From: Amphiura filiformis
Lineage: Eukaryota; Echinodermata; Ophiuroidea; Amphilepidida; Amphiuridae
Reading direction: 5' to 3'
Length of the DNA: 64,000 bases
Assembly: GCF_039555335.1 (NCBI RefSeq)
Contig: NC_092640.1
Location: 44,787,599 to 44,851,598, forward strand
The notes under the pieces are model-generated. The model was not told the DNA's origin. It was given only the letters and a program-made list of their open reading frames with translations, and did no database searches. Of this stretch, positions 9,511-51,944 are shown piece after piece. A program made the translations under genes and the position numbers. The stretch's first letter is position 1, and every line of letters starts with the position of its first letter.

Positions 9511-9546
9511 ATTAAGTGATGTCACTGATGTGCAGCGTTTCTGGAA

Positions 9547-9608
9547 TAGTCTCGGTACCAGCCGGTTTGTGCTCCTCCGTCCCTAAACAAACCGTCTGGC
9601 GACAGCCT
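9547..9608 (+). repeat. left 62-bp TIR of the giant element
   Basis: Identical at all 62 positions to the reverse complement of 51662-51723. Starts TAGTCTCGGTACC and ends GGCGACAGCCT. Flanked on the outside by TTTCTGGAA. Partial similarity continues inward as a CTGATTGG box 15 bp further in. Confidence 0.95.
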
Positions 9609-9857
9609 CATAGTACGTCTTTTCTGATTGGCTGAACCCTAACCCGCTCACAAACTGGGTTTACAAATAAGGAATGTGATGCGCACGCATCCCAGTACTA
9701 GTGACAGCCCAGAATACGTAACTTACAGCCTGTATGCAACATTGATAAACACTGCACCGGGGATAAACATTATATTATTTGTGTAATAAAATCGGTAGTT
9801 TTCTTCACTTTTTTCGACTCTACGTTTCTGTCAAGACAAACCAAATGCGTTAGAAAG
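9609..9857 (+). promoter_or_regulatory. promoter-like region and possible first exon (left end)
   Basis: An inverted CCAAT box (CTGATTGG, 9624-9631) lies just inside the TIR. A strong splice-donor match, GAAAG|GTGAGT, sits at 9857/9858, and an acceptor-like TTGTTTTACAG|GG occurs at 11743/11744. Together these could be the promoter, first exon and first intron of a rightward transcript. No long frame is present in the exon, so it would be 5' UTR or a non-coding RNA. This is inference from motifs only. Confidence 0.3.
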
Positions 9858-9859
9858 GT

Positions 9860-10600
9860 GAGTGTGCGGAGTAATTGGTATAGTAATTTCATGGAGTCGT
9901 TTTCTCGAGCTCACTGTTTTATACTCAACAGTGTCAGTCAGTAGAGTAGAGTCAGTAGTGAGTACGTCGAGTCAACATGATTGATTCATGACATGCATGT
10001 ATAAAATTTATTTAAAACATGATTAGTATCATTTACAGAACATGCAGAACACATGAACAGTGAGTGCAGTACGTATGATCTAGTTCGCAACGCAAACTTA
10101 AAAAACAGTCATGACAGTGCAAAACAGCCGGGCAAAACAGACGCATATCATTTATCGGCATGACGTATCAATTGCATGCTGCAGAGTTCCCTGTACTATG
10201 TAATCATGCAGCATGAATTCTGCACATTTGTTTTGCACACATCCAATATGCATGCAGGGCGCGTCGCGGCTGTAGCTGGGGGAGTATCGAGTATAATGAG
10301 GTGTGACACCCCCTAATAATTCTTAATTTGGTCGGCAAAAATTGACTGTTGCCGGCAAAACCATAGGCAAATTTAATACAAGAGTCATATAAAAATTAAA
10401 TAAAGTGTGTGGTTTTTACCAACTTGGGCTGTTATACAATATTTTTATGTAAAGTAACTAATGAAAAATAAACGATGACAAAAAAAATGTTGAGGAAAAA
10501 ATTTTATCCTCCCCCCACTCACTTTTTAGATTCTTGAGCTTTAATTGTTCTGGTTAAAAAATTAAGGTCATCAATTCACAATTTTACTAGGCAAAAAGGC
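9860..10600. other. stretch without recognised gene
   Basis: Contains a GTCAGTAGAG-like short tandem near 9930-9970 and several ATGCAT-rich palindromes near 10140-10260 (for example CATGCAG repeats). No coding signal. Confidence 0.4.
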
Positions 10601-10604
10601 GAGA

Positions 10605-11050
10605 TGGTAAGTTATCTTGAAATAATATATATTTTCTTAAGATATTAAAGTTATCTTGATATAATAAATAATCTTGATAATAAATTATCTTGAGATGATA
10701 AATTATTTTGAGATAATAAGGTAAATTATCTCAAAATAATAAATTATCTCGAGATAATAAATTATTTCAAGAAAATATTTTTATCTGGAGATCATATATT
10801 ATCTTATATAATCACCTTATCACTTATCTTCAGATAATCAATTATCTTGAGACAATCAATTATCTCGAGATAATCAATTATCCTGAGATAATCATTTATC
10901 CTGAGATAATTATCTGAAGATAAATAACTCTAAAAAATTACATATTACATATACCGTACTCTATATATTTTTGTCCAGATAAAATATCTTGAGATAATAA
11001 ATTTATATCTTAAGATAATTGATAACAAATTATCTTGAGATATGTATCAT
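10605..11050. repeat. array of palindromic TTATCTYGAGATAA units
   Basis: Roughly 20 degenerate copies of a self-complementary 14-17 bp unit, TTATCT(C/T)GAGATAAT, joined with variable spacing. Forms include AATTATCTCGAGATAATC and TTATCTTGAGATAATAA. Each unit is a small hairpin and holds two inverted AGATAA (GATA-type) boxes. The array is AT-rich and non-coding. Confidence 0.9.
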
Positions 11051-11743
11051 CAGTAATTATCTTTTTTTTTACTCATCACTCATCAATGCTTGTCATTTGT
11101 ATTTAGTTTGCAGTTGACCAAGATATCAACATTAATGGAGATTAGAGATGAATGTGGGATTTCTGTGACAATTGACCTGATACTTACAAGTACCGGTAAG
11201 CAGAAACATGCGCTAGGTCAACTCGGCTTTTTTTTTTTTTATTTAGAATAGTGCCAACAGCAAAAGGACACAGAACTGTTCGGGTCAGTCAGTCAGCCCA
11301 TAGAACAGGGGTTTCTTCCATTGCTTTACTGTATTTCAGTATCAAGTCCATTTTAATCCACAGCTCAAGCTTTCTTGCTTTAATATGGCTTTAGTTTATC
11401 TATATAACAAAATGAAGATTATTAGGATCTTGGTATAGAGACCAGTAACACTACCATGTACCAGTACATGCCATGTATATTTCAATATGCCATGACTTCT
11501 AAAAATGGGTGTGTTTCATTGTGAGTACTTCCATAGCAAAGTTAAGTGTTGGACACTGAAATAAGAAGCTTGTAATGTTCAAATCTTCTTTCATTCAGCA
11601 AATTCATCTGTTGAATATTCATGCTGGTAGATTTCATCCATGCAATAACTGTACAATGTAGACATTAATCATCCAGATGCTATTACAAGCATGAAAAAAG
11701 TTTTCATATTATGTAAAATTGTTATTATTGTCTTGTTTTACAG

Positions 11744-12920
11744 GGGTCATGCATGATGGTTTGGAAAATGGACCTTGTGATGGCTATACCATGGACATAG
11801 GAAACAATTAATTTTTGAATCAACGGAGGGAACTATTCTTGTTGGAGCTCAATGGATTATTCAACCTACGGATTTGTCACAAACTTCTCACATAACATTA
11901 TAATGCAGTTAATGGATGTAAAGTACCAGCATTCAGCAATTGAGAAAAAAATCAGTACGGTTGAATTAAGTTAATGACATGTCGAAGTCTGGCTATCTTT
12001 GTGACTAATTTGTGAAACATTGCACTGTTTCCCTGTTTGATGCTTCAAAAGAACTCCAATGATAAAGGTTAGACCTGTACAATAAATGAATTGTGAAGAA
12101 AAAACAGAACAAAAAATATTTAGGGCTCCAGAATTACACAAAAGATTGCATAAACAAGGGAATAATTGCGCCAAGATCATAACACAGGAAACCGATATGA
12201 TACAGCACCAGTGTCATACAGAAGCATCTGTATATACTGAGTGATTTGTATCCAGAAGCACACAGTAATACTGATGCCAAGCTAGTACTTTGCGTAGTCT
12301 GGTATAGAAGCACACGGGTAATTCCGTGTGCTGGACCCGTGTTGCTATGCCTATTATGCCGTTGCACTGTCCGTTGCCTAATTGATCGAGTGCACTGTTC
12401 TTTAGGATCCGATGAATTAGTTTTAAAGCAGAGCAGCTCAGAACGACTGGTCTTTTAGACAATTTAAAATTTTAAACGCGTATTTATTGCACGGTTGGCT
12501 TGACAGTGATTTGGCTTGGCTCTGGCGACCTTGCATCCCGGGGTACCTTGATCACAACAAATTTGGTTCTCATAATTATCTAGAAGCTGACACTATAGGC
12601 CTAATAAAATTTTTCGTAGACCCTATATTAGGCCTAATAGCTTTTATTTTATCCGTAGGCCTATATTAAACGACTGGTATGTGTGTATAGGTGTACCTGT
12701 ATGTAAATACCGTGTCTTTGTTTTGATACGCGAATGGACAAAAGACCGGATAACCGGATCGAATATTCCCTTTAATGAGTGGGGCTACTACGGGCAATAG
12801 CGGTGTCGGGGTGCGCATGCAGTCTCATACAGGGTCCATACGAATTATCAAGACATGCAGGACGAATTATTGCTCAATAGGTTATTATCTAGAATAACAT
12901 AGAATGGCAATTATTAGGCC
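11744..12920. other. possible exon start, then stretch without recognised gene
   Basis: After the acceptor-like site at 11743 an ATG at 11748 opens only a 20-codon frame ending TAA at about 11810. Farther on, frames of 70-80 codons overlap on both strands at 12134-12462 without any motif I recognise. Around 12595-12670 the palindrome TAGGCCTA occurs several times. I see no gene that I can support. Confidence 0.35.
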
Positions 12921-12948
12921 TATTTATCGATTTATTATTATAGACTGA

Positions 12949-12979
<31 letters not shown>

Positions 12980-13350
12980 ATTAATAAATTAATTAATTAA
13001 CATTTATTCATTTATTTTATTATCTATTTATCGATTTATTATTATAGACTGATAAATAAATAAATAAATAAATAAATGAATAAATAAATAAATAAATTAA
13101 TAAAATTAATTAATAATTAATTAATTAATTAATTAATTAATTAATTAATTAATTAATTAATTAATTAATAAATATTAACATTTATTAATTTATTTTATTA
13201 TCTATTTATTTAGGCCTATTTATCGATTTATTATTATAGACTGATAAATAAATAAATTAATAAATTAATTAATAAATTAATTAATTAATATTAATTAATT
13301 AATTAATTAATTAATTAATTAACATTTATTCATTTATTTTATTATCAATT
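12920..13350. repeat. tandem AT-rich repeat with embedded (AAAT)n/(TTAA)n
   Basis: Three imperfect copies of a 100-180 bp unit start near 12921, 13024 and 13213. Each opens TTTATCGATTTATTATTATAG, then ACTGATAAATAAA, runs into AAAT and TTAA repeats, and ends ACATTTATTCATTTATTTTATT. Unit length varies with the number of simple repeats. Confidence 0.9.
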
Positions 13351-13374
13351 TATTTTATTTAGTCACTTATATAT

Positions 13375-13830
13375 TTATTTATTTATTTATTTATTTAATA
13401 ATTGATTAATATATTGATTGATTGGTTGATTGTGTGAGTCAGAAAGAGAGCTTGTGAGTAGGGTGAAGTATCAAGTTGATTGATAAGCTGATTGGATTTA
13501 TTCATTAGATTTTGTTTTAAATATTTTGTTGACTCATCCACTCATTTATTGATTAATGTATCTATTTATTTATAAATTTTTACTTATTTATATATTTATT
13601 TATTTATCTATTTAGTTATTCGTTCATTTAGTTTAGTTTGATTTAGATCGATTAATCGATTGATTGATTGATTGATTGTTTGATTGATTGATTATGTGAG
13701 TGAATGAGAGAGATGGATAGATTCAGAAAGGGGGAGAGTATATCAAGTTGATTCGGATTAGTTGATTGGATTAATTCATTCATCGATTGCTTGATTTGTT
13801 GATCGCTAGGTAGGTTGATTGGTTAAGTAG
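13375..13830. repeat. (TTTA)n and (GATT)n low-complexity region
   Basis: Two GATT-rich blocks (about 13400-13440 and 13645-13700) are each followed by a similar GAGTSARAAAGAGAG-like segment and AAGTTGATT, which suggests an old duplication of about 250 bp. Confidence 0.75.
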
Positions 13831-14690
13831 GTGATTTAATAGCTGAGTGAGTAAATGGGGGTCATTGAGCAGTATAGGGATTGAGTAAGCAGTTCAAAGT
13901 ATAAGCCTACTTTACGTGAAGGGGTGAATGGATAAGTTCTTTCTTTCTCCTGGCTTGGGACCGTTACTGTCCACACCACCCCCATATGGAAAAGTTTTCC
14001 TATGAAAGTCTCTTTAAATAAATTATACTCCACTCCAGTGTGTGCACACTGTGTGTACAGAGGCGTTCGAGGTCAATGCACAATGCATACATTACCACAC
14101 AGCACACTAAGCAGGGCTGTACGGAAGAGGGTATGGTTTTTCCTACTGTACGACGGCATTTTGTAAACAATCAGATTCCTTTTTAGAGAGTAGAATCTGG
14201 CAAAGTATTTCTAGGAAATATCGTGTGAGCCAAGTCAATCGGACTGACTATTATCAAGTGAGGGCCGTCTGTAGCACGCTACTTTAATAACACGGGGTGC
14301 ATGTCAGTGTATTTCGCAGTAAATTGAGTGAGATTTTGGAAATACCTTGCGGTGTTTAGTGCTCCTGTACGACGAGGTCTTTCATCAGATTTCCTTGAAA
14401 ATCGAGGAAAGTAGAGTTTGATATATACATGAGACAATTAAGAGTGAGCCAAAAAATAAAAGACTTTCCCTTTATAATAATAAAAGTTGAAAGTGAAAAA
14501 AGACAATTTTCTCCCATTGCTTAACTGTGGGACCCCTTTTATTTGAGCAAAAGAGACTACTTTTCCATATGCCCCCGTTGCCTCCAGTTTCTTCATTGAA
14601 GGTAAGTTGTAGGTTGTACTGTTTGATACATGTTTTTATTTGGAAGGGGCCGCTGGGGATGACTTATGACCCCACCTTCCTTGCTCTCGA
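13831..14690. other. stretch without recognised gene
   Basis: Weak internal duplication: CCTGTACGACG / CTGTACGACGGC with a following ATCAGATTCC occurs near 14145-14190 and 14365-14400. No coding support. Confidence 0.35.
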
Positions 14691-14699
14691 CCCAGCTGC

Positions 14700-17600
14700 T
14701 TCAGCTCTGCAGTGATAATTTAGGCACGTTGCTTCCCATAAATAGTGTCATAGGGACACGGGGGCACGTGTCTCCCCCCCCCAATCGATCTGGAATTTTA
14801 AAAAATCCCATGGCGAATTTGCTGACCCCCATTAGACCCTTTGCCCCCACCCAAAAAAAAAAATCGTGGTCGGTACCCCCCCCCTACAACCATGTTAAAG
14901 TTTTAGCGCCTATTCACTTTTTGACTGGGGGATCCCTCCCCCACACAAAATTGCTCGAGCCAATCCATCTGGTTCAGTGATGATAAGAAAATGGAAGCTA
15001 GTTGTAGCCTAAAACCCGTTTAACGATCATGTAAATGTGTTAGTGCTTACTCTTATAATCACACCTTGCTTCCCATAAATTATATATGATATATAGGGGA
15101 AAGCTTTCTGACTGGGGACCCCACCCCCCCTACAATTGCTCTCAATCCATCTTGTTCGATAAAGATCACCCCCCCACACACACACACACACCCCCCAACA
15201 TCCCATCTCCCTCACAATTGCTCTCAATCCATCTTGTTCGATAATGAGCCTAAAGCACGCTATATCCATGTTAAAGTTTTAGCGTCTTCTCCCATCTCGC
15301 TTCCCATAAATTATAATGTTCACTTTTATTTCGATGGGGCATTAGGGACAATGACTTCTGACTGGGGGAACCCTCCCCCACACACAATTGCTCGAGTCAA
15401 TCCATCTGGTTCAGTGATGAAACAAAAAAGTGGAAGCTGTAGCCTAAAACCCGTTATGACCATGTAAATGTTTTAGTGCCTGCTCTGATAATCACATGTT
15501 GCTTCCCATAAATTATAGGCCTAATGTCCACTTTTACATGTTTAATTTATTTGTAAAGGGCATTAGGGGAAAAGACTTCTGACTGGGACCCCCCCCCCCG
15601 CACCTCACCCACACACACACCCCCCCACACACACAATTGCTCAATCCATCTATGGTAATACAAAACACTGCATTTTGAGCCTAAAGTACGCTATAACCAT
15701 GATAACCATGTTAAAGTTTTAGAGCCTTCTCTTATTTGGACATCTCGCTTCCCATAGATTATAGTGTTTACTTTTTTTTCGAGGGGGCTTAGGGACAATG
15801 ACTCAAAGGGGATCCCCCCCACACACACACACAATTGCTCTCAATTCATCTAGATCAGTGATGATACCAACAAAATGCAATTTGTAGCCTAAAAAAATCA
15901 TGGTCGGTACCCCCCCCTCCCCCCCCCGCCACCCGCTATAGGCCTATAAACCATGTTAAACTTATAGCGCCTTCTCCTATTTGGACATCTCGCTTCCCAT
16001 AAATTATACTATTCAATTTTGACTGGGGACCCCCCCCCCCAACAAAATTGCTCGAGTCAATCCATCTGGTTCAGTGATGATACAAAAAATGATACTAAAA
16101 CTGCATTTTGAGCCTAAAGCACGCTATAACCATGTTAAAGTTTTAGCGTCTTCTCCTATTTGAACATCTCGCTTCCCATAAATTATAGTGTTCACTTTTA
16201 TTTCGATGGGGCATTAGGGACAATGACTTCTGACTGGGGGACCCCCTCCCCCACACACAATTGCTCGAGTCAATCCATCTGGTTCAGTGATGAAACAAAA
16301 AAATGGAAGTTGTAGCCTAAAACCCGTTATGACCATGTAAATGTGTTAGTGCCCGCCTCTTATCATGCTTATAATCACATGTTGCTTCCCATAGGCCTAA
16401 TGTCCACTTTTACATGTTTAATTTATTTGTAAGGGGCATTAGGGGAAAAGAATTCTGACTGGGACCCCCCCTCACCTCACACACACACCCCCACCCCCAC
16501 CCACACACAATTGCTCTCAATCCATGGTGATACAAAACACTGCATTTTGATTTTTGAGCCTAAAGTCAAGTACGCCATAACCATGATAACCATGTTAAAG
16601 TTTTAGCGCCTTCTCTTATTTGGACATCTCGCTTCCCATAGATTATAGTGTTTACTTTTTTTTCGAGGGGGCATTAGGGACAATGACTCAGAGGGGAATG
16701 CCCCCCCACACACACACACAATTGCTCTCAATTCATCTAGATCAGTGATGACACCAAAAAATGCAATTTGTAGCCTAAAGCCCTTATGACCATGTAAATG
16801 TTTTAGCGCTTGCTCTTATTTGGACATGTTGCTTCCCATAAATTATATATTATAATGTAGCCTACCATTTTACATGTTTAATTCATTTAGAAGGGACATT
16901 AGGGGAAGTGACTTCTAACTAGGGACCCCCCCCGCACAAACACACACCCCCACACAAATTGCTCTCAATCTAGATCGATGATGATACAAAAAACTGCATT
17001 TTGAGCCTAAAGCACGCTATAACCATGTTTAAGTTTTAGCGCCTTTTCTTATTTGGACATCTCACTTCCCATAAATTATAGTATTCACTTTTATTTCGAA
17101 GGGGCATTAGGGACAATGACTTCTGACTGGGACCCCCCCCACACACACACACCCCCACCCCATCCACACAATTGCTCTCAATCCATCTGGTTCAGTGATG
17201 ATGTATGTTTGCTTTTATGAAACTTTTAGTTCATCCCTGTTTGAACACAGCTTTAGTACGTAGGGCGACCGGGCTATAAAAGATAAGAGCGCCCTCGTTA
17301 GGCCTCCTATATTTTCATCGCCAAATACGCAGTTCTATTGCATGTAAGCAAGTCACTGATAGACGTGACGGTTCTCTATAGAAGAGATTGCAGAAAAAAA
17401 GTTTTTTTTTTTTTTTTCTTGTTAAACACGCCAGTTAGGAAATTTTTTGCATTCGCAAAATTGATTTTTGAACATGCACGGGTGGGATAATGGGAATGCT
17501 GTGCAATTATTATAAGCCCTGGGGATGGTTAATTTTTGTTGGGGGAAAACATTTTTTTGGCTTCTGATTGGGGACCCCCCCCCACACACACACACCCCCA

Positions 17601-18610
17601 CCCACAATTGCTCTCAATCCATCTCGATCAGTGATGATACAAAAAATGCAATTTGTATATAGCCTAAAACCCCTTATGACCATGTAAATCTTTTAGCGCT
17701 TGCTCTTATTTGGACATATGTTGCTTCCCATAAATTGTAATGTCTGCTTTTACATGCTTAATTTATTTAGAAGGGGCATTAAGGGAAATGACTTCTAAAT
17801 GGGGACCCCCTCCCCCCACAACCCTCCCCCAACACACCTCAGTTGTTCGGTGATGATACAAAAAAAACTGCATTTTGAGCCTAAAGCACGCTATAACGAT
17901 GTTAAAGTTTTAGCGTCTTCTCCTATTTGAACATCTCGCTTCCCATAAATTATACTGTTCACTTTTATTTTGAGGGGGCATTAGGGACAATGACTAATGA
18001 CTGCGGGAAACCCCCACCACACACACACCCCCACCCACACACCCCAATTGCTTTCAATCCATCTGGTTCAGTGATGATACACAAAAATGCAATTTGTAGC
18101 CTAAAACCCATTATGACCATGTAAATCTTATAGCGCTTGCTCTTATAATCATGATAATCACATCTTGCTTCCCATAAATAATATTGTCCGCTTTTACATG
18201 TTTAATTTATTTAGAAGGGGCATTAGGGGAAATTACTTCTGAAGGGGGACCCCCCCCCCACCTGAGACACACACACACCCCGTTCGGTGATGATAGAAAA
18301 AACTGCATTTTGAGCCTAAAGCACGCTATAACCATGTTAAAGTTTTAGCACCTTTTCTTATTTGGACACCTCGCTTCCCATAAATAACAGTGTTCACTTT
18401 TATTTCGAGGGGCATTAGGGACAATGACTTATGACTGGGGACCCTTCCCCCCACACACAATTGCTCTCAATCCATCTGGTTCAGTGATGATACACAAAAA
18501 TGCAATTTGTAACCTACAACCCCTTATGACCATGTAAATGTTTGAGTGCCTGCTCTTATAAATCACATGTTGCTTCCCATAAATTATAATGTCCCTTTTA
18601 CATGTTTAAT
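14700..18610 (+). repeat. A/B alternating tandem array (~16 units of 180-340 bp)
   Basis: The anchor GCTTCCCATAAATTAT recurs at about 14729, 15069, 15299, 15500, 15748, 15991, 16172, 16383, 16630, 16830, 17068, 17722, 17938, 18169, 18374 and 18569. Two unit types largely alternate. Type A has CATCTCGCTTCCCAT, then TTCACTTTTATTTCGA and ATTAGGGACAATGACT. Type B has ATGTTGCTTCCCAT, then TTTTACATGTTTAATTTATT and ATTAGGGGAAATGACT. Every unit then has a poly-C/(CA)n tract, CAATTGCTC, CAATCCATCTGG and a GCCTAAA block. An A+B pair is a higher-order unit of about 430 bp. Frames across it are shadows. Confidence 0.93.
17190..17560. repeat. foreign segment interrupting the A/B array
   Basis: Between two array units lies DNA unlike them. 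Its last part (17427-17560) is about 80 percent identical to 18985-19115 just past the array end; both have TTTTTTGCATTCGCAAAATTG and GAACATGCACGGGTG. A T16 run lies near 17405. Confidence 0.75.
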
Positions 18611-18632
18611 AATTAAAGAAAAAGGTTTTTAA

Positions 18633-18970
18633 GAGTACTACACCCTGCTCAATTGTGTGCCTATTTTTTCATTTTTCTCAATATTATAGCGCATTGGTGA
18701 CAAGTAAGATATGTATATTATAGGGGCAAGGACTACAACTACTGCACTGGAAATTTTATTTCAACACAGACACCAGTTGTGGAGTTACAGTCAAAAATGA
18801 GGGAAAACCAATATTTGATCAATAAATCAATAACTACTTGCCTTGAGTTGCTGAATTTTCAGTGCAGTAGTTGTAGTCCTTGCCCCTATAAGATTACTTG
18901 TCACCAATGCGCTATAATTTTTGAGAAAAATGCAAAAATAGGCACAAAATTGGCCAGGGTGTAGTACCCC
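18633..18970. mobile_element. TTAA-flanked foldback MITE, copy 1
   Basis: Inserted between TTAA duplicates at 18629-18632 and 18971-18974. The ends are inverted: GAGTACTACACCCTG and CAGGGTGTAGTACCCC. Both arms carry CATTTTTCTCAA, GCGCATTGGTGACAAGT and GGGGCAAGGACTACAACTA with their complements. A TTAA duplication is the mark of piggyBac- or Kolobok-type transposition. A sister copy lies at 21458-21780. No coding capacity. Confidence 0.85.
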
Positions 18971-18984
18971 TTAAGTGATGGTCT

Positions 18985-19115
18985 TGTCAAACACTCCAGC
19001 TACGAATTTTTTGCATTCGCAAAATTGATTTTGAACATGCACGGGTGAGATAACGGAATGCTAATTATTATGAACCCTGGGAGGGTTAATTTTTTGTTGG
19101 GGGGGGCATTTTTGG
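18985..19115. repeat. second copy of the array-interrupting segment
   Basis: Direct repeat of 17427-17560 with small indels, located immediately after the TTAA MITE. Confidence 0.8.
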
Positions 19116-20099
19116 GCACACATTCATTAACGGATCACCTTTTTAATGGGGAGGGGGCAGTACAAAAACCTTGATTTAGATGCAAAATGTCATCCTCTCA
19201 TTATTCCTTTTTTGACCATTAAAGATTTGTGCAATTATAAAGGGGGGGGGGCAAAGATGTTTTGGCAGGTCGAGAGGGGAGAAAGTATTTTTGCCAGGCC
19301 AAAGGGGCAGCAATTTTTGGCACATCTTTTGAAAATACCCATCATTATTGCACAGCCCCTAAACATAATATCAATGATTTCTTATTTTGTCTGTGATTTG
19401 TAATGTTACTATTGTATGTGATTTTCTGTCTATTATTGACAAGACTCAGTGACATAGCCGAAATTTTTCTGATACCAGAATCTCAACTTTGATAGTGGGT
19501 GTCAGGAGGAAGAAAGTCAATTGGGTCATTCACATATAGTATGTAATTATGTATAGCTTCAGGCCCATAAGCAGGATTTAGTTTGGGTGTGGATGTGGTA
19601 CTTCCAAAGAGGGGATCTTTGAATTAAAAGTGCGCTTGTAAAAATTGGGACTTAAACCCCACTAAAATTATCAAACCTTTTTTTCCCAGTTTTGGACCAT
19701 TTCATTGAAAAATGTGGACTGTTGTGGATTTTTATAAAGAGAAATTGTAAAACACAGATCAGGTGATTAAGGAAACTTTCACACAGATACTGGCAACGGG
19801 ACCCGGTGCTTAAAATGAAAGACCTGTTTAGAAGTGACACTACAAACAGTAGAATGAAAGCAGATACAAGTTTGCATTATATTCGCTTCTTTATTTTGTT
19901 CTTACAAACCCACAAGGGCATACAAATATGTTGAGTATAATACTTCTTAGGCTTAAAGGAAGGTGACCTGATATATTTGGAAAATCAAATTCTTTAAAAC
20001 TTACGTATAACATAAAATGTCATCCCTTTCAAGCACTCATGCAAAAAGAAAATGTAAATGTTTTTTGTAAATGTGACTAATTCCTAATGGAATTACCGA
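19116..20099. other. stretch without recognised gene
   Basis: Contains G8-G9 runs near 19100 and 19240 in sequence resembling the G-rich repeats at 50.1 and 58.1 kb. No coding frame with a recognisable motif. Confidence 0.4.
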
Positions 20100-20946
20100 C
20101 AGGGTGTCTAAATAAAAATAGGCCCTGTGGAATGGGGTCCATAACTTTAAGTATCAGCAGTAAAATTAAAATGTTCTTAAAGATTCAAAAACCACAAAGT
20201 GCCTGCTTTAAAATTATGCAAAAAGCGTCACAATCCGTTCTCGCATCACTGAGATAATTGAGATTGTACAAATAGACTCATTTTTGGACCGTTCCAATGG
20301 GGCAATACACATTAACAATATGCATTGTAGTTTAAAATGAAAAAATAAAATGATGAATACTCCCAATGTTGTTGGATTCAACATAAATCAATCAATCAAG
20401 CAATCTCTCAAAGAATGTTGTTCACACATTTCTCTTTGGGTTAACAATATGTAAAAGTGAATCTTCTAAAAATATTGTTCACTCATTTCTCAAGCAACAG
20501 TAGGGCTGGCCTTAATATTGCAGTGGCTGAAATAAATTGTTCTAAAAATGGTTACAAAAATTAAATGGTTCAGGTGAAAGTATTGATTGTGAAATAAACA
20601 AAATTTGAAAAATAATATCAATAACCATGGAGGCATAGTTTCTGATCAGACAAGCTATCACCTACCCAAGAACACCGGAGTTTTATGTGTATTTCCTCCA
20701 TACTAAACTACAAAACAGCATATTATTGTTAACGTGTATATTGCCCATTGGAAAGGTCCAAAAATGGGTCTATTTGCAGTTTTCCAATTATCTCAGTAAC
20801 GCGTGAACGGATTTTGATAAATTGTTGCACCATTTTATAGCAGACATTTCATGGTTTTTGAATCTGTAAGAAACTTTTAATTTTACTGCTGGTAATTGAT
20901 GCTATGTCCCCAAATCCACAGGGCCTATTTTTATTGAGACACCCTG
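20100..20946. mobile_element. long-TIR element, ends CAGGGTGTCTAAATAAAAAT
   Basis: The arms 20100-20340 and about 20705-20946 are inverted copies of about 235 bp. The ends are CAGGGTGTCTAAATAAAAAT and, at the right, ATTTTTATTGAGACACCCTG. Both arms carry TTTTTGGACC, TATCTCAG and TTTTGAATCT-like blocks with complements. The CAGGGTGT terminus is shared with the mariner-like elements at 41.1 and 58.7 kb. The flanks read GA on the left and TA on the right, so a TA duplication is not intact. No transposase. Confidence 0.75.
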
Positions 20947-41060: not shown

Positions 41061-41062
41061 TA

Positions 41063-42192: not shown

Positions 42193-42636
42193 TACATGTA
42201 TTTACACTATTTTGGCGCATGATCAGGGTGGAACTGGCTCCTTGAACCTGTTCTCTATCTTTGCCTTCCATATTTTTACTTTCATTTTTCTGTAAGAAGG
42301 GCACCTTTATCTTTAATTTTGGGCCCCCACACATGTGTGTTTGCCTGGTTGTTTCTTTGTTTGCTTCTTTGTTCGGCTGCTCGGGAGGAAGCGAATTGAT
42401 TAATCCACTGTGCAGCTTCAACACAATAATCGATCAACTACATTATTATGTCTTCAGAATCTTGCATCCTATACCTTTGTACATAACCCAGCTGTCAGAT
42501 AAATTTGTGTATCGGTCACCTGGAGCTACAGGGTTTTTTCATATCTGTAGCCTCTTCATAGAGTGCACAGTTCATATACTTTATGTGTAAAAGTCTCTTT
42601 TGGTGTGATTTTTTGTTGTTAATGTGACAAGCCATG

Positions 42637-42950
42637 ACCAAAAATCACATTTTTGACCAAAAATCACATTTTGACAAAAAATCACATTTTTGACCAAAAA
42701 ATAAAAATTTTTGACCAAAAATCACATTTTTGACCAAAAAATTTTTGACATTTTTGACCAAAAAACACATTTTTGACCAAAAATCACATTTTTGACCAAA
42801 AAATAAAATTTTTGACCAAAAAATCACTTTCTGACCAAAAATTGCGTCAAAAATCTTTTTTGACCAAGAGTCGCATTTTTGACCAAAAATCACATTTTTG
42901 ACCAAAAATCATGTTTTTTTACTAAAAATCATGTTTTTGACCAAAAAAAG
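42637..42950. repeat. ~19-bp minisatellite TTTTTGACCAAAAATCACA
   Basis: About 16 units of TTTTTGACCAAAAATCACA and shortened variants. The minus-strand translation repeats a FGQKCDFWSKN-like motif because the unit is open in that frame; low complexity, not a gene. Confidence 0.95.
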
Positions 42951-42970
42951 ATTCTGAAGACATAATAATG

Positions 42971-43125
42971 ATAAAATTGGACGGATAATTTAAGCATGAT
43001 ACCTGAATTTATCAGTCTCGCTAGAGTTTTCAAATATCACGCTCGACTTCGTCTCGCATGATATTTGAAAACTCTAGCTCGACCGATAAATTCAGGTATC
43101 ACACTCAATCCGTCCAATTTTATAT
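42971..43125. repeat. 155-bp near-perfect hairpin
   Basis: The arms run from ATAAAATTGGACGGAT to the inverse ATCCGTCCAATTTTAT, with almost no loop (around TCGACTTCGTCTCGC). Only a few mismatches, so one strand could fold into a stem of about 72 bp. Probably a small foldback element inserted next to the minisatellite. Confidence 0.9.
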
Positions 43126-43184
43126 CATACTTAGGTATGGTGATAGGATATGGTGGCTTGATGTGCTGTATAGTTTTGTGTTAT

Positions 43185-43380
43185 TTGCATATTTATGAAT
43201 ATTAATGAGCTTATTTGCATATTTTGCCGACATTTTCATTGATCCACTCTGCAGCTTAAGTGCATAAAATAACCAATCAACTTGAAACTTGGTTTGGTGA
43301 TTGTATATTGTGACCTGATGTTTGTCATGAATGTTATTTGCATTAATGAGCCTATTTGCATATTGCATATCATTTGTATT
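43185..43380. promoter_or_regulatory. cluster of ATTTGCAT octamer-like motifs
   Basis: TATTTGCATA/TTATTTGCAT occurs four times (about 43188, 43212, 43336, 43356), with ATTAATGAGC beside it twice. The octamer matches POU-domain sites, but the duplicated context shows it is a repeated unit, so regulation is not implied. Confidence 0.35.
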
Positions 43381-43399
43381 TACAAAACATTGTTATTTA

Positions 43400-44042
43400 C
43401 ACACTTTTGAGTGAGTGCCACCTTAATTACGAACCCCGTAATTCTAGTTTGCCGGGGGAAGTCTGCCCCACCTGCTCCCCCCCAACTGGCTACACTACTG
43501 CTAGAAAGTTGTTACCATGGTTACATTTATGCATATTCATGCAGTTGGGAGATACCTCTATTACTGCCAAGTGGTATTTTGCATTACCTTTGCTGGTACA
43601 GGGGGTGGGCTATGGTAACTTCGTGCTACATCGGTAACTTGTGCTACTGGTAACTCGTGCTACAGTTTTTAAGGGGTCATTATTATGTGGTGGATAGTGT
43701 TTTGTATTTCAATTTCTTATTTTTATTCAAGGTACTACTAGTAGAAGGAAAATAATAAGTGGCATCAATTAAATTGTCAACATTTTGTAAATATATTAAA
43801 AAATGCATCTCTCGGTAACTTGTGCTACACTATATTTAGTGTTATGAAAACACAATGAAAGGAAAAAACTAGCGGGGGGTTATTTAAAATGTGATGGATA
43901 TTTCTTGAAGACCATATTTCATAGATAAAATGTATCAAATTAAAAGTGCCCCTGTTTAATAAAATAGACCCAACAGGATTTTTCAACTAAAAACTAAAAC
44001 AAAATGTTAGAAAAATGCAGAAAAAAGTTTAGAACTTGAACA
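43400..44042. other. stretch with GGTAACTYGTGCTAC repeats, no gene
   Basis: GGTAACT(T/C)GTGCTAC or a close variant occurs at about 43614, 43632, 43649 and 43814. Otherwise featureless. Confidence 0.5.
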
Positions 44043-44045
44043 TTA

Positions 44046-45409
44046 GGCCCCAAACAATCGATTTTGAGTTTCCCGTCACATAATTTTTGAAAACAAGTGA
44101 GGTAACTTTTTCATTATTCATTATTCATTATTTTCGTGACTTTCATTATATGACAAAATGCGAGTGTAAAACACGTTGTTATTTACCGCTCACTCACTCA
44201 AAGGATGTTTAACCAAAGATATAAACTTGCAAAGAGGCTGCAAGGTCAAAATTGATACCAATTCCTTTCTTTTTACTATTATTTTTCTTATTTATTTATA
44301 ATTTTGTGTGATTTAAGTACAAATTATCCAGTTGGCGTTGACATGCGATATATATCCACTGCATGACAGTACGACCACTGTCGCATATCTTAATTGATAT
44401 GTACATGACAAATCTTTAATACAAACGTCAGCAAAGTCCCATCAAATTGAAATCAAAATACTGAAACAATTGCAATTCATGAATTGGTACTTTACAGCTC
44501 CACTATCGAATCTTGCGCCAACAAAATTAAAGGAAACCCCATGCGTCGTGTTTTGTTGATGTTGAATACCGCATAGTTTTTGCAGCAATTTCATAAACAC
44601 AACGGAGTTGAAATATATAATTTTTTGCTCTTTTTGAATATTAAATTTAATTTAAAACTATATCGAATACTATTTAAAAATAAATAATTGATCAATCGGG
44701 ACAACAAATATAAAATTAACAGTATTAATATATTTCTTTAATTACCACAAACAACGATATTGTGCAAAGTCACAAACAGCACTGTAGAATAAAAAAATCA
44801 GACATTGAAAAATATTTTTGTTCGACCGCATATTTCGTGCAACAGTGTCACAATAGAGCAGAGTTGAAATATATAAATTTTGCCATTTTTGTACAGTCAA
44901 ATTAATGTAAAACGATACCAAGTACTATTTTAAAATATATGATTGATATTTATGAAAAGAAATCCAAAAATAACAGAATCAATATATTTTTTAAAATTAG
45001 CACAAACATCACTATTCATTGTGCGATTTCGCGAACAGCACTGTAGAATCATTGATCTGCATGACAGCATTAATCTGTCAGTCCAGTATATGATACGCAC
45101 GTGGAAAAGGACAGCGCCGTCAACATATTTACAAAGCGTTGCGAACCGGGCCTACAGGATCTAGGCTATCACTATCAGGCGCCAATCACCGCCAATCAAC
45201 CGGCCGCAATGAGTTTACTGCCGGTAGCGAAATCGATGTTTTGAATTTGATTTTTCCACTAAAAATGCACGGATTTCATCGGTTTTTTTTGCAAAAATGA
45301 TAAGATTTTATTTTTATTTTTCGAAAATTTGCAATAATGAATTCAAGTGCGGGCCCGAAAATGAAGTGCGGGCGGGCGACGGGAAACTCAAAATCGACTT
45401 TGCCAGGCC
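44046..45409. mobile_element. 1.36-kb Harbinger-like element (TTA duplication)
   Basis: TTA at 44043-44045 and 45410-45412. Left end GGCCCCAAACAATCGATTTT then GAGTTTCCCGTC; right end GACGGGAAACTCAAAATCGA then CTTTGCCAGGCC: inverted. Next to the right end is GCGGGCGGGCGAC. A related shorter element lies at 59913-60284. Two internal segments repeat each other: GTTGAAATATATAA...GTACTATTT (about 44607-44675 and 44860-44932), each followed by AACAGCACTGTAGAAT (about 44775 and 45032). No transposase. Confidence 0.82.
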
Positions 45410-45412
45410 TTA

Positions 45413-47365
45413 CATCTGCTTGGAATATTATGAAAGTTAAAAGAAATACAAAAAGGCAATTTTAGTTTTTTGAGTCATGTCCACTTTTGCTTGGAATTGC
45501 CCATTTATACATTTGAAAATTAGAATAATCAGGCTGTATAATGAGCCCAAACTTGATGCAATTGGACCAAGAATAGCCCTGTGAGAACAAGTTAAATTAG
45601 AAAGAGGCAAGAAAAATGTAACATCACCAGGTATTTTGGGGTCCCACCATAAGACACATGACCAGCTCCGAATTTGCACACGATAGTTACGCATTCGATG
45701 CTAGAGTTGTATGTTGCTATCGTTTTTCGGTCAGACAGCGGTGCACTTTTTTGCACGTGCACCGGAGGTTATTTATTCTGTTAATGTTGAAATTTGGATG
45801 AAAGTTATTTCGATGAGTCAACTGTATCTTTTGAGTAAGATTTGCCTATTATGGACAGTTTAAAATTGTGCTGAAGTGTAATTTTCACAACATTTTTGTT
45901 TTGATGCGATCGTCTGTCGTGATCGGCTGTGACAGTGTTTACTTAGAAAGTAACTTCCATTGCTTAGTACACGGTGTCATGCTTCAGCAAATCCGAAGTC
46001 TAGATTTTGAATGCAATGGTCTCTAGCCTAGAATGTGAAGCTATCGGCGAGCAAATTCTTGGCTAGACTTCTCGAGCAACACAATGACGTCGACCATCAC
46101 TGGCACTGCCACTGGCTATTAATTATTACCAACAAATGTGGAGCAATGAGAATGATTGATACTTGGATATAATTTTACTAAGTAGAACTTACCCTGGAAG
46201 GTGCCGCGCCATATCATCGCATCGCCATCGGCAGTGCAGCTAGTGCATGAGTGTCAGCTGGTCATCACTCAGTGTCGACAACATACATGGTACCGCGGAT
46301 ACATTTACCGGCATTGACCGGGTAAGCTTAAAAACATTTTACACATGGACATGACATGATGACAGTTCAGTCAGTTGTGACACCGAAAATCACACCACCA
46401 CACATTCAACAAATTATGCATTATACGGCAGTAAAGTAGTGAATAAATCATGAAAATAGGGTTTCTCTATTTAGGCCAAAGACAGTTCCAAATGAAACAA
46501 AACAATGTTCGTATCGAAAACTCTGTTCATGATTCGCGGAATCGCGGTTTCCCATCGGTCACTCAGACTTCATTTGCAGTCGTTTTTGTAATTTTATTCG
46601 TCATCACCGGCAACACGGTACCGGCCAGAAAAGTATACCCTACAAACCGTATGATTCTGTATACCAAGCTATAAACTATTTAGCTTTGCATCGGTACTAC
46701 CGCGTACTTGCGCACCGAAAGTGCACAGTAGGTAGTGTCGACTGTATCTTACACGGGTGGATACAGGGTCTTTGAAAGAGCTGTGCAGTCAGAAAATTTA
46801 ATTTGTGAGAACCGTAATATATAATGCCACAACAAAAATGATGTTGCTTGGTAAAGCATCTGCCACATATTTTTTGAATTTTAAAATTGACCCATCGGGT
46901 CTGGAATGACAACAATTTGAAAATTACACCTCAAAATGTAATCGTTTCCACAAGTCAAATTATGATGCATGAATAGGAACACAAATTCAATTTCCAACGG
47001 TACAGTTCTTCAGAGACGCCCTGTATACTGCAAAGCAGGTTATTTTAGCGGTATACTTTTTTTCATGATTTGAACTGTTTTGCGGTTTCTTGTATTCAAG
47101 TTTTGGTTATTACAACATATGGTTCAAAAATATTTTTGCAAGCTATAAAATTTACGCTTCTGAAATTAACAGCAAAAATAAAAACCTAGTGAAAATTTCC
47201 GCCTATGCAGTAATGGTGATAGTAATCAACAAATGCTACAGTTTTGATGAAACTGATCTCACAGCTTGATTTCAAATTGTTTATTATTAAAAGAAAATGT
47301 TGCATCACCTGGAATGACTCTGTAACTATGTAACAAAGGAAGTAGAAGTGGTCATGAGTATGACG
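45413..47365. other. stretch without recognised gene
   Basis: Frames of up to 86 codons on both strands have no motif I recognise. ATGTAACATCACCAGGTATT (about 45618) and ATGTTGCATCACCTGGAATG (about 47297) are alike, followed by CCATAAGACACATGACC / GTGGTCATGAGTATGACG, so an old repeat pair is possible. Confidence 0.35.
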
Positions 47366-47369
47366 TAGG

Positions 47370-48110
47370 GGTGGAAACTTTTGAACCTCATAAAATTTTT
47401 ATTTTTTTAATTTAAAAAAAAATAGATATATCTAGGACTTTTTTTTTATCAACTTCACCAAAAATATTTGAAATTTGGGCGAAATTCTCCCTGAAAGTCA
47501 GGCTTTTAAAAATTATTTTTGAGCAAAATTTAGCATTTTTCAACCTTTTTTTTTGGTGAACATTTCTCAAAGTTGGTCAAAATTCCATTTTTTTTCAAGG
47601 GTCCTAGATATCTATATCTAGTTTTTGAAAATTAAAAAAAATTGTTACATTTCCCCAAATAATTTGGATGAAAAAAACGTTTTGTTCAAAACTGAGCATT
47701 TTTTTCACAAATTTGACCTCACAGATGGATTTGTCAATTTTTTGCCATTCTTCACCCAATGGAATTTGGGGAGCTGCACATATAATTGGTGGAAGTGCTG
47801 ATAGGTTTGCGCTGCAAACGGCCGTAGCCTAGTTGATGCGATCTGATTGTGATGATTCACCATGGCAGCGAAATTACAGTGCTTTAAAAAAAAAAAAAAA
47901 AAAAAATTAAATTTAAAAAAAAAAAAAAAATTTAGAGGATTAAAATCCTCTAAAATAGTAAGACCTAGGAAAGAGTGCTATATAAATCCAAAATTTATTT
48001 ATTTATTATTTTATTCTAAATTTGTATACTTTTATATACCTCAGACCAACAATTTAGCAGTTATGGGGCTCAAAAGTTTCCATTATTCCAGGGTTAAGAC
48101 CAACCTTAAT
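47370..48110 (+). repeat. dispersed repeat also at 60892-61330, split by a SINE
   Basis: Shared blocks in the same order: AGATATCTAGGAC, ATCAACTTCACC, GAGCATTTTTCAACC, TCTCAAAGTTGGTCAAAATT, AACTGAGCATTTTT, AATTTGACCTC and ATTTAGCAGTTATGRGGC, then GGGTTAAGACCAACCTTAA. The copy here contains an extra 47753-48045, a SINE. Confidence 0.85.
47753..48045 (+). mobile_element. SINE 3' part inserted in a dispersed repeat
   Basis: Starts CACCCAATGGAATTTGGGGA, close to the SINE at 36520, and includes CTGATTGTGATGATTCACCA and CATGGCAGCGAAATTAC. Then follow long A runs (47886-47930), a TAGAGGATTAAAATCCTCTA hairpin and the tail GTGCTATATAAATCC(A)n TTTATTTATTATT. TATATAA with a TTTA tail is typical of animal SINEs. 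The tRNA head is missing, so it is 5'-truncated. Confidence 0.75.
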
Positions 48111-48310
48111 ACCTAGTGTTGTCCAGGTAACCAACCATTCTTGGTAAAACTATTCTTTATTAGAGTGGTAATGACATGTAAAACAATTAGAGACCAGTGT
48201 TATCAAATGTGGGGCATTACATCTACTTGATCATTCATGGTGCCCAACATTTATTAACCTTGGTCCTTTTTGGCTCGTACACATAAACTGGAATGAAAGC
48301 CATTTTTTGT

Positions 48311-48782
48311 GGGACATGAGAGCACATCAGACATAATTTTCATTTTTTTAATGATATCATAGTAATAGAAATTTTATGACAAATTAATATTTTCACATTT
48401 TTCACATTTTTTGATATATAACAGTCCTCGAAGTAAATTTTATAAATCAAATGATATATTCTTAAAGTGTATGTAGCTGGTAGAAAAGGTGTCGATCAAT
48501 TGAAAATTTTGACCTTTCATATTGAAGATATGGATTTTTCCCATAAAAGACATAATTTTTTTTTGGTGTTTTGGGAAATCCATATCTTCAATACTGAAAG
48601 GTAAAATTTCCAATTGATCGCAGGCTTTTCATCCCACCTACATACACTATAAGTATAAATCATCAGATTTATAAAGTTTACTTTGAGTACTGTTAAATAT
48701 AAAAATATCAATTTTAATCATTTGCCATATAATGTGTATTACATTGCGAATTTCAAAAAATCAAAATTATTTGATATCAAAT
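48311..48782. mobile_element. foldback element, centre near 48560
   Basis: The left arm begins GTGGGACATGAGAGCACATC. The centre is a perfect-looking hairpin: GATCAATTGAAAATTTTGACC ... inverse (48495-48620). The right arm matches 35760-36000 and is cut at about 48782 relative to that copy. Confidence 0.8.
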
Positions 48783-48784
48783 TT

Positions 48785-49190
48785 AACACTGAAGAAAATT
48801 CAAGCAAAGCAAATAATTATGTTTGTAATTTATTATTCTTTTCATTGTTCACAACAAAGTCATGATTGTTAACATCATCTGTAATGTACAATGTTTGTGT
48901 TAAAAGTTACCAAATTTTTCTTCAATAAAGTAAGCAAATCTTCAGATACTATGTAAAGAGGTTTAATAAAATGTTCCTTTTATATAGCATGATTGATGGT
49001 TCTACTTAGAGTGATTGTAGTTATACATTTCATGTAAAACTAGCTCAGTTCGCTGACCATAAGGCCATCTATTGCCACATGACTCGACTAAGTAAGTTGG
49101 GAGTGTTTCAAAATACTTGGATTTCCCTGACAATAATAGAAATAACTTGGAGCTGTAAACAGATGTAACGACAGTGGCGTGCGCAAAGGG
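48785..49190. other. stretch without recognised gene
   Basis: No repeat or credible frame. Confidence 0.4.
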
Positions 49191-49221
49191 GGACCATACC
49201 CCCACTATTGCTGAAAAGTCA

Positions 49222-49415
49222 GGAGAAATGGCCCAGTCAAGGACACATTTTGAAAAATTTGGGAATCAAGACCTATCCTCCACCACTTAAAAAAACTTGC
49301 AGATGCCACCGTAATGATAGCCAGATTGTTTTGCTGTGACTTTTATTTTTACCAATTACATACTGAAGGTGCACCAATTTTTCAAAATGTGTCCTTGACT
49401 GGGCCATTTCTACGG
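49222..49415. repeat. inverted repeat ATGGCCCAGTCAAGGACACA
   Basis: GAAATGGCCCAGTCAAGGAC at about 49226, with the following ACACATTTTGAAAAATT, returns inverted at 49376-49412. A foldback with a loop of about 110 bp. Confidence 0.8.
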
Positions 49416-49419
49416 GCAC

Positions 49420-49605
49420 AGGTAGGTACATCATTGTCAAGGTACCAGGCTGGTACACACAAAGTACCTACACAGTACCAATACTGCTACTGCACAGGAT
49501 CTACCAGCAGTGGTACTGCACTGGTCCTACACTGGTAGTACTCCCCTGGTACTGCACAGTACCAGCCAAGTACCTTTGGCGATGGTGTACCTGTGCCCGG
49601 GACCT
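49420..49605. repeat. GGTACY-rich cluster
   Basis: Fifteen or so GGTAC/GTACC units in variants such as CTGGTACTGCAC and GTACCAG within 190 bp. The unit is self-complementary, so the region can form many small stems. Confidence 0.75.
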
Positions 49606-49639
49606 GTGCAGGAATCTGGTACTGTTACTAAGCTTGTTT

Positions 49640-49984
49640 GTTTAAACGGTCGCTCTGTGTCCAGTTGAAATTGGATTACGCATCTCCTTTCTCTTGGCCC
49701 AAAGGCTGACAGTAAAATTGTTCACTTGATTATTGGAAGTGGTCTTCTCTTCATAATATTAATCCTTAAACACTTGTTGTCACAGTCCACTGCTTAGATT
49801 TAATTTCTTGATTGGAATGTATTACCGGTAATCAAAAAGTTACTTGTGGAGTGCTTGTTATCACACATGGCACTGCAGTACACCGCTAAACAGACTTGCA
49901 GAGGAATGTTTATCACAATATGCTGAATGTGGGTCCTTATATCGACAACCAGGTGACTGAGTTTCCAGGCCTTGGTCAATCTTT
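49640..49984 (-). other. possible second exon of the right-end transcript
   Basis: On the minus strand an acceptor-like TTTCTTTTAAAATTTACAG|AAAG falls at 49985/49984, downstream of the donor-like site at 51413. The segment has no long frame. Exon status is a guess from motifs. Confidence 0.15.
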
Positions 49985-50140
49985 CTGTAAATTTTAAAAG
50001 AAATAGAATAAAATATTTTATTGTTTCACATCGAACAAGTTGGTAAGGTGCAGTGATGCCTTATCGGGGGTTCCAGGGGGCAGCGCCCCCAAAAGCTCAT
50101 GGATTTTAAGGTTTTTCAAAGGGCCAGATTGGGTATTTCC

Positions 50141-50455
50141 CCGGGGGGGGCACTCAACTGAAATTTTGGTAGGGGTGTGCGGCGCGGAGCGCCAAACTTT
50201 GGGAACTAAGAACTGATTTTCAGGCAAAATAGGGGCTTGAAGAACTGAAATTAGGGCCAAATTATAGGCTGTTGAGCTAAAAATTTCTAAATTATTTCCA
50301 AATTTGAGCTTAAAGAGCTACAATTGTCAGAGTTTGAGGCTCAAAGAACTGGAGCAGATCCAAATGTGGGGCTTAAGGAACTGCGGAGAGCCTGAAAAAG
50401 GGACCCTTGAGCGCCCGCACATACCCGTACCACCTTAACATGTGAGTGCCCCCGG
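50141..50455. mobile_element. MITE with CCGGGGGCACTCA ends, 8-bp duplication
   Basis: GTATTTCC stands at 50133-50140 and 50456-50463. The ends CCGGGGGGGGCACTCA and TGAGTGCCCCCGG are inverted. Interior: TTGGTAGGGGTGTGCGGCGC at the left and GCGGGCGCTCAAGGG-type sequence (inverse) at the right. G-rich relatives are hinted at 19.1, 51.9, 55.2 and 58.1 kb. Confidence 0.8.
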
Positions 50456-50469
50456 GTATTTCCCCCTTT

Positions 50470-51410
50470 TTGTTCAAGATTTATGTGAAAAAATTATTAA
50501 AATTATCGTGCGCTACTTCGTGCGCCACTTGACTGACTCAAAGCGCCACAAGATGGCCGCACGCCACTCAGTTGAGAAGGCTTAACGATTCTGATCAGTG
50601 CTGGCCCCGATGCCAGTCACTAAGCTTCATTCACTGTGAGCTACGTTGCACTGGCATACCAATTACTGATATTAAATTAGTTAAAAGGGCATTTCATGAC
50701 AATCCATAGCCTCATGGCCCCACTTTTTCAAAAAAAAAGGTTGAGATTTTTATACCACTGGAAACCTCAGGCTACATATTATAAATGATTATGTACACTG
50801 CTCCATAGGCCACCATTGTAATTTCGCTCTGGTATACCAGAACGAAATTCAAATTGATGATATTTTGCTAAAGGAATTAATCTGCAAGAAATATTTGGTA
50901 TCGGTACATTTAATTTTTTGAGAAAAGTGAGGGATCCGGATGAGGCTGTGGATCACGGAATGACCTTTTAATTAAGTTTGTACTGTAAAAATAAAGGGAA
51001 TTTGGCCGGGGAATTTGTTACTGACTTGATTTATAGTAATACCAACAATCTACCCCGGGCTTACTACACTATTCAAACAGTGCAGCTTTGCATACATTGT
51101 ACGTATTAAACGTACGTATAGCTATTTCATCATTACGTGTCGTAACTTATTCAACTGTCTTCTTGGGCTCTGATGGAGGCTATAAAAAGCCTATAAAATG
51201 CCCACCTTAAACACCTAAATTACACTGCATAATCTAATAAATGAGTAGGAGTTAGAAGACTTCTGCTGCCAATCGGGTCCAATTCCATGTGTGTACTTGT
51301 TGTACCACTTGTCTTGGAGAGAACCGTGTCAACACCATTTCTTGAACTCGTTGACTGATTTGGCTGTTACTAGCTTACTATAGCTTACCCGGGACCATTT
51401 TTAATATACT
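50470..51410. other. stretch without recognised gene
   Basis: No credible coding frame; a small inverted pair, GCTCTGGTATACCAGAACG, at about 50827. Confidence 0.4.
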
Positions 51411-51413
51411 CAC

Positions 51414-51661
51414 TTTATTACAGCACTCAAAACTGGCATGCAGATTCAATCCATATTGTAGTTCTACTCGAATTTCCACAACTCCACAGCATACACCAAC
51501 GTTGTTTACATTCTCCGCACATGACTGAACCCGGAAGTCCCTGTTGTGAGTCGCTTCCTGGTTCCGTTACGTGACTCTGCTCAGCCAATTGAAAATGTTT
51601 TTATATCTACGCTTTTGAATATTCATTAAAATTCATTAACCAATCAGCGATTGTCAATTTC
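51414..51661 (-). promoter_or_regulatory. promoter-like region and possible first exon (right end)
   Basis: Reading inward from the right TIR (minus strand): CTGATTGG at 51647-51640, a TATA-like GATATAAAAAC near 51608-51598, another ATTGGCTGAG, and a donor match ATAAA|GTGAGTAT at 51414/51413. This mirrors the left end, though the two regions are not the same sequence beyond the CCAAT box. Confidence 0.3.
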
Positions 51662-51723
51662 AGGCTGTCGCCAGACGGTTTGTTTAGGGACGGAGGAGCA
51701 CAAACCGGCTGGTACCGAGACTA
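51662..51723 (-). repeat. right 62-bp TIR of the giant element
   Basis: Exact reverse complement of 9547-9608; followed by the 9-mer TTTCTGGAA at 51724-51732. Confidence 0.95.
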
Positions 51724-51944
51724 TTTCTGGAATAGCACTTGCATCGTGCATGTATAATTTGAATGTAGCTTGCTGTATTTAATATGTGCATGCATATTAC
51801 AGGAGTTTAGGCCCATCGAAAAAACAATTGAATAATTTAGGAGATTATCAGGGGCTGTGAATAATTATGAGTCCTGAGGCGGGTAAAATTGGGGTGAGAG
51901 GGGTGCGATTTGGACCTTAAAACGCTTTAAAAGGCTTAGGATAA

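Follow-up and report, generated by a model that had tools for sequence, protein, structure and literature searches.

Transposon ends that jointly move the DNA lying between them have been described in plants as well as in animals. For the maize Ac macrotransposons, a 28-kb unit between Ac 5' and 3' termini is described as having excised with a modified 8-bp duplication left behind, and reinsertion is described for a unit of 10.3 kb (PMC9910405), and an Ac/Ds macrotransposon is reported to mobilise up to 100 kb, mostly nested retrotransposons (PMC3260210). In Drosophila, foldback DNA transposons are described as flanking and mobilising segments of hundreds of kb (the Ising transposing element, Ising TE), and Pack-MULEs, grouped here with the Mutator-like elements (MULEs), as carrying host gene fragments with the transposase acting in trans, those of one 2004 study reaching at most 7 kb (both as summarised in PMC6431247). 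Large animal elements bounded by terminal inverted repeats (TIRs) include Polinton/Maverick, given as 15-25 kb and up to 40 kb (PMC6431247), and Teratorn, given as 180 kb (PMC10175614). Here we analyse 64,000 nucleotides of contig NC_092640.1 of Amphiura filiformis (the window, i.e. the whole stretch of DNA studied), in which an earlier note had proposed a 42-kb transposon with 62-bp TIRs and a 9-bp target duplication. Judging from its sequence, we give somewhat better than an even chance to positions 9547-51723 being one recent cut-and-paste unit of 42,177 bp (42.18 kb), in which resident DNA would be the cargo and a DDE transposase would have acted in trans.

The structure of the two ends is confirmed as the earlier note described it. 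Reverse-complemented, the right end matches the left at 62 of 62 bases, inward base 63 being the first mismatch, and TTTCTGGAA directly adjoins both outer ends in the same orientation (coordinates in Table 1), so that there is no difference among the 62 sites of the ends or the 9 sites of the duplications. BLAST reports arms of 64 bp (the left one at 9545-9608), because the duplication happens to start with TT and to finish with AA. The right duplication is followed by TAG, the triplet with which the left end begins, so that a direct repeat of 12 bp (TTTCTGGAATAG) is an alternative reading; 9 bp is preferred because both ends are then symmetrical.

The rarity of this configuration was assessed with a scan of the window for inverted pairs with exact arms of at least 14 bp and a span of at least 500 bp, direct repeats of 4-12 bp being sought at the pair ends or within 3 bp inward of them. 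Among the 483 pairs obtained, 473 show no direct repeat, 8 show one of 4 bp, one shows 8 bp and one 9 bp, the sole 9-bp case being the unit described here. A separate, BLAST-based search led to the same 9-bp result, with a runner-up of 7 bp that lies within a 19-bp tandem array. The 8-bp case (30311/35502) delimits what is probably a second, ordinary element, hence its recovery serves as a check on the method. As a word, TTTCTGGAA is not rare: it occurs three times in the window counting both strands (the third copy at 58732-58740, minus strand), compared with a mean of 1.2 copies in shuffles, 16 of 100 of which have at least three. What is rare is its placement. Two random 9-mers of the window are identical with a probability of 2.3e-5 (7.5e-6 from base composition), a higher chance than the 1 in 262,000 or so per offset estimated in the earlier note, and some 0.01-0.05 chance matches of 9 bp would be expected from 483 overlapping, non-independent pairs with 4 boundary positions each, compared with the one observed. 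A chance origin of the configuration was therefore dropped, and on the same figures it is hardly credible that two independent end fragments lie here with flanking 9-mers alike by chance or target preference; the third copy of TTTCTGGAA would agree with this reading and the shared TTTCTGGAATAG could hint at such a preference, but a preference would still leave each fragment without a partner end. An insertion with target duplication appears as the most likely source of both junctions.

Each end harbors a hairpin, with arms CCAGCCGGTTTGT and ACAAACCGTCTGG. For the left end, the self-inverted score was reached by none of 2000 shuffles, and the DNA fold of the hairpin has a z of -2.68, with 1 of 200 shuffles equally stable. 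A plausible role for the arms is that of inverted binding sites in a transposon end. Inward past base 62 no homology between the ends was detected in ten global or local alignment tests over 58-938 bp (z between -0.63 and 1.83 with respect to shuffles), on which grounds longer, diverged TIRs were discarded; such a result is predicted when the ends alone are transposon-derived.

A further copy of the 62-bp end was not found in the window, where no other local match scores above 14, and since 18 of 40 shuffled ends score equally high the idea of a hidden second copy was dropped as well. The earlier note had considered that the TIR might be common as solitary units with their own nearby partner, and within the window no extra end copy of this kind appears; likewise, inspection by eye of the flanks of each 62-bp unit revealed no duplication that fits both sites, on which grounds the reading of the hairpin-bearing unit as a solitary mini-element was rejected. 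The flanks rejoined over a single TTTCTGGAA yield the predicted empty-site sequence TGCAGCGTTTCTGGAATAGCACTTGC, and no match within the window crosses that junction, so the rejoined flanks were not retained as a piece of a window repeat. Viral contigs with a 15-mer of the end provided 34 stretches, the longest match being of 17 bases, in 3 of the 34, and taken as chance. Longer end pieces gave no match in prokaryotic or in viral contigs, a result close to uninformative with respect to the host genome. In the literature, the element is not reported in the titles or abstract starts among the matches listed. That the assembly is at fault, either by joining two unrelated end copies or by setting a foreign block inside a short element, we consider very improbable: the ends are short repeats, at which misjoins may occur, but these do not readily produce matching outer 9-bp repeats, two joins inside one short element would be needed, and interior and flanks are alike in composition.

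The content of the interior comprises tandem arrays, inverted repeats and short open frames. The search for Pfam domains used six-frame translations in which stops were written as X; the 24 interior queries span 9501-42602 and 42901-51802 (without the 298 bases of 42603-42900), and in the flanks the search was confined to 53425-55100, minus strand, in one frame. Neither a transposase nor any other domain above cut-off was found in the 24 interior queries, three of which gave five matches to unrelated families, all well under the cut-offs; ten single open reading frames (ORFs) compared with Pfam yielded nothing above cut-off and one weak match. Hence, the profile search for transposases that the earlier note had suggested came out negative at this level. 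As a control, the same X-at-stop method was applied to two frames of a virus contig, of which one yielded nine families, five of them passing their cut-offs, and the second yielded none; the genes of this contig are unbroken, and short conserved exons could escape the scan. A tRNA scan with the bacterial setting and an Rfam scan gave no match. In 4-mer composition, interior and flanks are no further apart than parts of the window divided at arbitrary points (of 128 circular shifts, 79% give an equal or greater difference), so a foreign composition was dropped. Because domains were not found and the composition is like that of the flanks, the interior looks like ordinary resident DNA rather than a gene-bearing element. 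The ORF at 29771-30073, of 101 codons, has the most protein-like composition outside simple repeats; no relative of it was found in the PDB, Pfam or a protein collection, the last being limited to proteins of similar length, such that an exon of a longer protein could escape, and a coding gene at this position was dropped. GGCCTA and its overlapping variants, whose over-representation is a feature of echinoderm and hemichordate sequence, are about fivefold over-represented in the window (36, 40 and 35 occurrences with 6.9 expected).

Inward of the two ends, candidate splice donors face the interior at nearly equal distances, a coincidence spotted post hoc between end regions that are otherwise non-homologous. 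CCAAT-like motifs were seen by eye close to each end, between it and the donor. Together, donors (at +311 and +310) and motifs are what would be expected from an autonomous giant transposon with unrecognised genes, in which each end would have an inward promoter and a first exon, short exons would lie in long introns and the transposase would be too diverged or fragmented for Pfam; promoters are indeed described in MULE TIRs (PMC6446971). We judge this explanation decidedly improbable, as no domain above cut-off was obtained from frame queries or ORFs with a method that did find families in the control contig (with its unbroken genes), the most protein-like ORF is without relatives, and the similar donor distances were spotted in retrospect, in regions that share no homology.

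The relative age of the ends was estimated as the probability of 0 differences in 62 if the ends were as old as a given interior repeat and evolved freely. This probability is 3e-7 for the tandem duplication with 21.4% divergence (44568-44790/44825-45049) and 6e-4 for the array with 11.2% (17583-18610), and both values speak for an old block that moved recently. It rises to 0.013 for the pair 33821/34212 (6.8%) and 0.022 for the dispersed pair 35755-36003/48542-48779 (6.0%), and further to 0.13 for the 31-bp pair at 38852 (1 difference in 31), 0.15 for 31880-33064/34116-35309 (3.0%) and 0.51 for 39351-39543/40060-40245 (1.1%), younger repeats that are neutral on move versus growth. The statement of the earlier note that TIR identity suggests recent movement is favoured by the two old tandem pairs and gains nothing from the younger repeats, and its view of the older repeats as cargo is supported by the same tandem duplications and by the flank-like composition. 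The competing explanation is that a short element, either a miniature inverted-repeat transposable element or a small transposon, inserted with a 9-bp duplication and that the 42 kb grew inside it later, through nested insertions, tandem duplication or one large insertion. This would agree with an interior rich in repeats, inverted repeats and arrays, several of them young (1-3% diverged), and with the probable nested element of 5.2 kb, which has an 8-bp duplication to itself. We nevertheless find it fairly unlikely, given that gradual growth to 42 kb needs a long residence, yet ends and duplications display 0 of 62 and 0 of 9 differences compared with 11% and 21% in the tandem pairs, and that the ends share no homology inward of base 62, as leftovers of a short element would.

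Concerning the superfamily, the earlier note had pointed to Mutator-like elements on the basis of the 9-bp duplication. MULEs are described with duplications of 8-11 bp and TIRs of 14-500 bp, and Rehavkus with a 9-bp duplication and TIRs of 26-400 bp (PMC6446971), whereas Merlin is given with duplications of 8 or 9 bp and TIRs of 24-462 bp (PMC8101967); piggyBac and Kolobok, described with a TTAA target duplication (PMC9587614), differ from the present locus, duplicated in TTTCTGGAA. Duplication (9 bp) and ends (62 bp) both fall inside the MULE ranges; a MULE transposase domain above cut-off was not found among the interior queries and ORFs, although a non-autonomous element need not carry one. 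The same two features fit Rehavkus, but its PHD-finger transposase was not found above cut-off, nor was its minisatellite before the 3' TIR, there being no tandem array between 47939 and 52492; with the element read in reverse, the array nearest to the left end is 10608-10910. Merlin agrees in the 9-bp duplication and in the range of end lengths, and differs in its conserved terminal GG, absent here as the ends start with TAG, and in its DDE_Tnp_IS1595 domain, which was not found. As no transposase was found to decide, the superfamily is left open, with Mutator-like (MULE or Rehavkus) as the leading candidate, by duplication and end length alone, and not established. What stands of the proposed 42-kb transposon is hence that one TIR-bounded insertion with a 9-bp duplication best explains the sequence, without an established superfamily.

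With regard to architecture, the unit may be said to work like a macrotransposon, by analogy. It presents outermost inverted ends with one target duplication, and as in the Ac/Ds case two separated ends would move the intervening DNA as a unit. It departs from a textbook macrotransposon in that a pair of complete elements with recognisable inner ends was not found in the window; single-ended or fractured copies are compatible with what is observed. Ac/Ds is furthermore a plant hAT system with 8-bp duplications and ends of known elements, whereas here the duplication is of 9 bp, the family is open and complete elements were not found. The Ising TE is an animal case of transposon ends moving the enclosed DNA, as proposed here. 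Foldback arms are long and internally repetitive, in contrast to the 62-bp ends with a single hairpin of this locus. Polinton/Maverick and Teratorn are likewise giant animal elements with TIRs, but they bear virus-like gene sets, not found here (no polymerase B, integrase or capsid domain of Polinton/Maverick in the 24 frame queries), and their target duplications are of 6 bp and TTAA, respectively, instead of 9 bp.

A sequence of events can be proposed in which two isolated transposon-end copies would have come to flank, in inverted orientation, about 42 kb of DNA, most of it already resident and repeat-bearing before the move. Fractured or truncated element copies leaving ends, or a pack-type capture, would give the observed structure, and by analogy the origin may be macrotransposon-like or pack-type. 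A transposase presumably encoded elsewhere in the genome would then have paired both ends in trans, and everything between them would have been excised and inserted into TTTCTGGAA through staggered cuts 9 bp apart, whose gap repair would produce the flanking duplication, both ends having moved together in a single event. Several points weigh against this proposal. The support comes from a single locus in one 64-kb window; a probable nested hAT-like insertion, which may have arrived before or after the move, makes up some 5.2 kb of the interior; and classical macrotransposons consist of two whole elements with inner ends, none of which were found in the window. Surveyed arthropod MULEs are described as reaching only about 10 kb (PMC13359780), and transposition efficiency is stated to fall above 6 kb of cargo (PMC6431247). 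The dating argument is partly weak, since the repeats with 1.1%, 3.0% and 1 in 31 differences are compatible with later growth and those with 6.0% and 6.8% speak merely mildly against it; moreover, a diverged tandem pair could arrive within a transposon, and the argument is void if it did so after the insertion or if the ends are held identical by conversion or constraint. Taken together, a single giant unit is the likelier state of affairs, albeit unproven.

The remaining features are mostly repeats. A hAT element is typically marked by an 8-bp duplication and ends of the form CAG..., and the segment 30312-35501, of about 5.2 kb, is probably a nested hAT-like element on these grounds, in which the Pfam frame scans found no transposase domain. 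It encloses a foldback-like structure (31880-35309) whose 1.2-kb arms both start with TTTAAGAGCC and have a BLAST identity of 95.7%, with 3.0% substitutions when aligned globally. This structure also contains a 196-bp tandem array, and a separate target duplication was not found for it. A second foldback-like structure, at 25928-27599, carries tandem repeats of 19 bp (GGTCTCAAAAACA...) in each arm, and its long open frames consist of this repeat. At 39351-40245, a near-identical direct repeat (2 substitutions in 186 aligned sites, 7 gap columns) surrounds a 516-bp stretch that, with inverted ends recognised by eye, may be an insertion between the copies. Just outside the left end, at 8966-9500, inverted arms of about 75-95 bp (AGTGCGCC...GCAATCCGG, by eye) delimit what seems to be an older short inverted-repeat element. 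Towards the borders of the window there are an interstitial TTAGGG array at 3627-3705 (12.5 copies, 82% matches) and a 73-bp tandem array at 63738-64000 (94% matches) that runs past the right edge, with a neighbouring 75-bp array at 63503-63700.

Table 1. Positions in the window of the proposed unit's ends, of their flanking duplications and of selected interior features.
Feature	Position	Strand	Basis or description
Left target-site duplication TTTCTGGAA	9538..9546	+	Sequence match, direct-repeat scan
Left TIR, 62 bp, starts TAGTCTCGGTACC	9547..9608	+	62/62 compared with right end
Hairpin in left TIR	9558..9599	+	Arms 9558-9570 and 9587-9599, 12/13 paired, 16-base loop
Interior, 42 kb, read as cargo	9609..51661	.	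No domain above cut-off, tRNA or Rfam RNA; many repeats
Candidate splice donor GTGAGT, inward-facing, 311 bp from outer left end	9858..9863	+	Consensus match only
Tandem array, 435-bp unit	17583..18610	+	Two units 11.2% diverged; repeat scan, alignment
Nested hAT-like element, probable	30312..35501	.	Inverted ends starting CAGTGTTGTAGTC, 8-bp duplication GACTATCC on both sides
Tandem duplication	44568..45049	+	21.4% diverged; alignment
Candidate splice donor GTGAGT, inward-facing, 310 bp from outer right end	51408..51413	-	Consensus match only
Right TIR, 62 bp	51662..51723	-	62/62 compared with left end
Hairpin in right TIR, mirror of left	51671..51712	-	Sequence identical to left end, the one tested
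Right target-site duplication TTTCTGGAA	51724..51732	+	Sequence match, direct-repeat scan

In terms of biology, the size of the unit is rare and the kind of event is known. To judge from the sizes cited, natural units this big would be rare in animals outside virus-like elements, and artificial constructs of 100-200 kb are stated to have been moved (PMC6431247). The matching inverted ends and the 9-bp repeat suggest an unusually large single-piece move of a 42-kb block of ordinary-looking, animal-type DNA. If this is true, bare 62-bp ends and a trans-acting transposase would suffice to relocate blocks of a size that could hold genes together with their regulatory DNA. A broader possibility, which we deem unlikely, is that this block is one of several carried by an animal family of geneless, hairpin-bearing 62-bp ends that would routinely take along tens of kb of host DNA; if true, gene-sized segments of the genome would be rearranged by such a family through cut-and-paste transposition.

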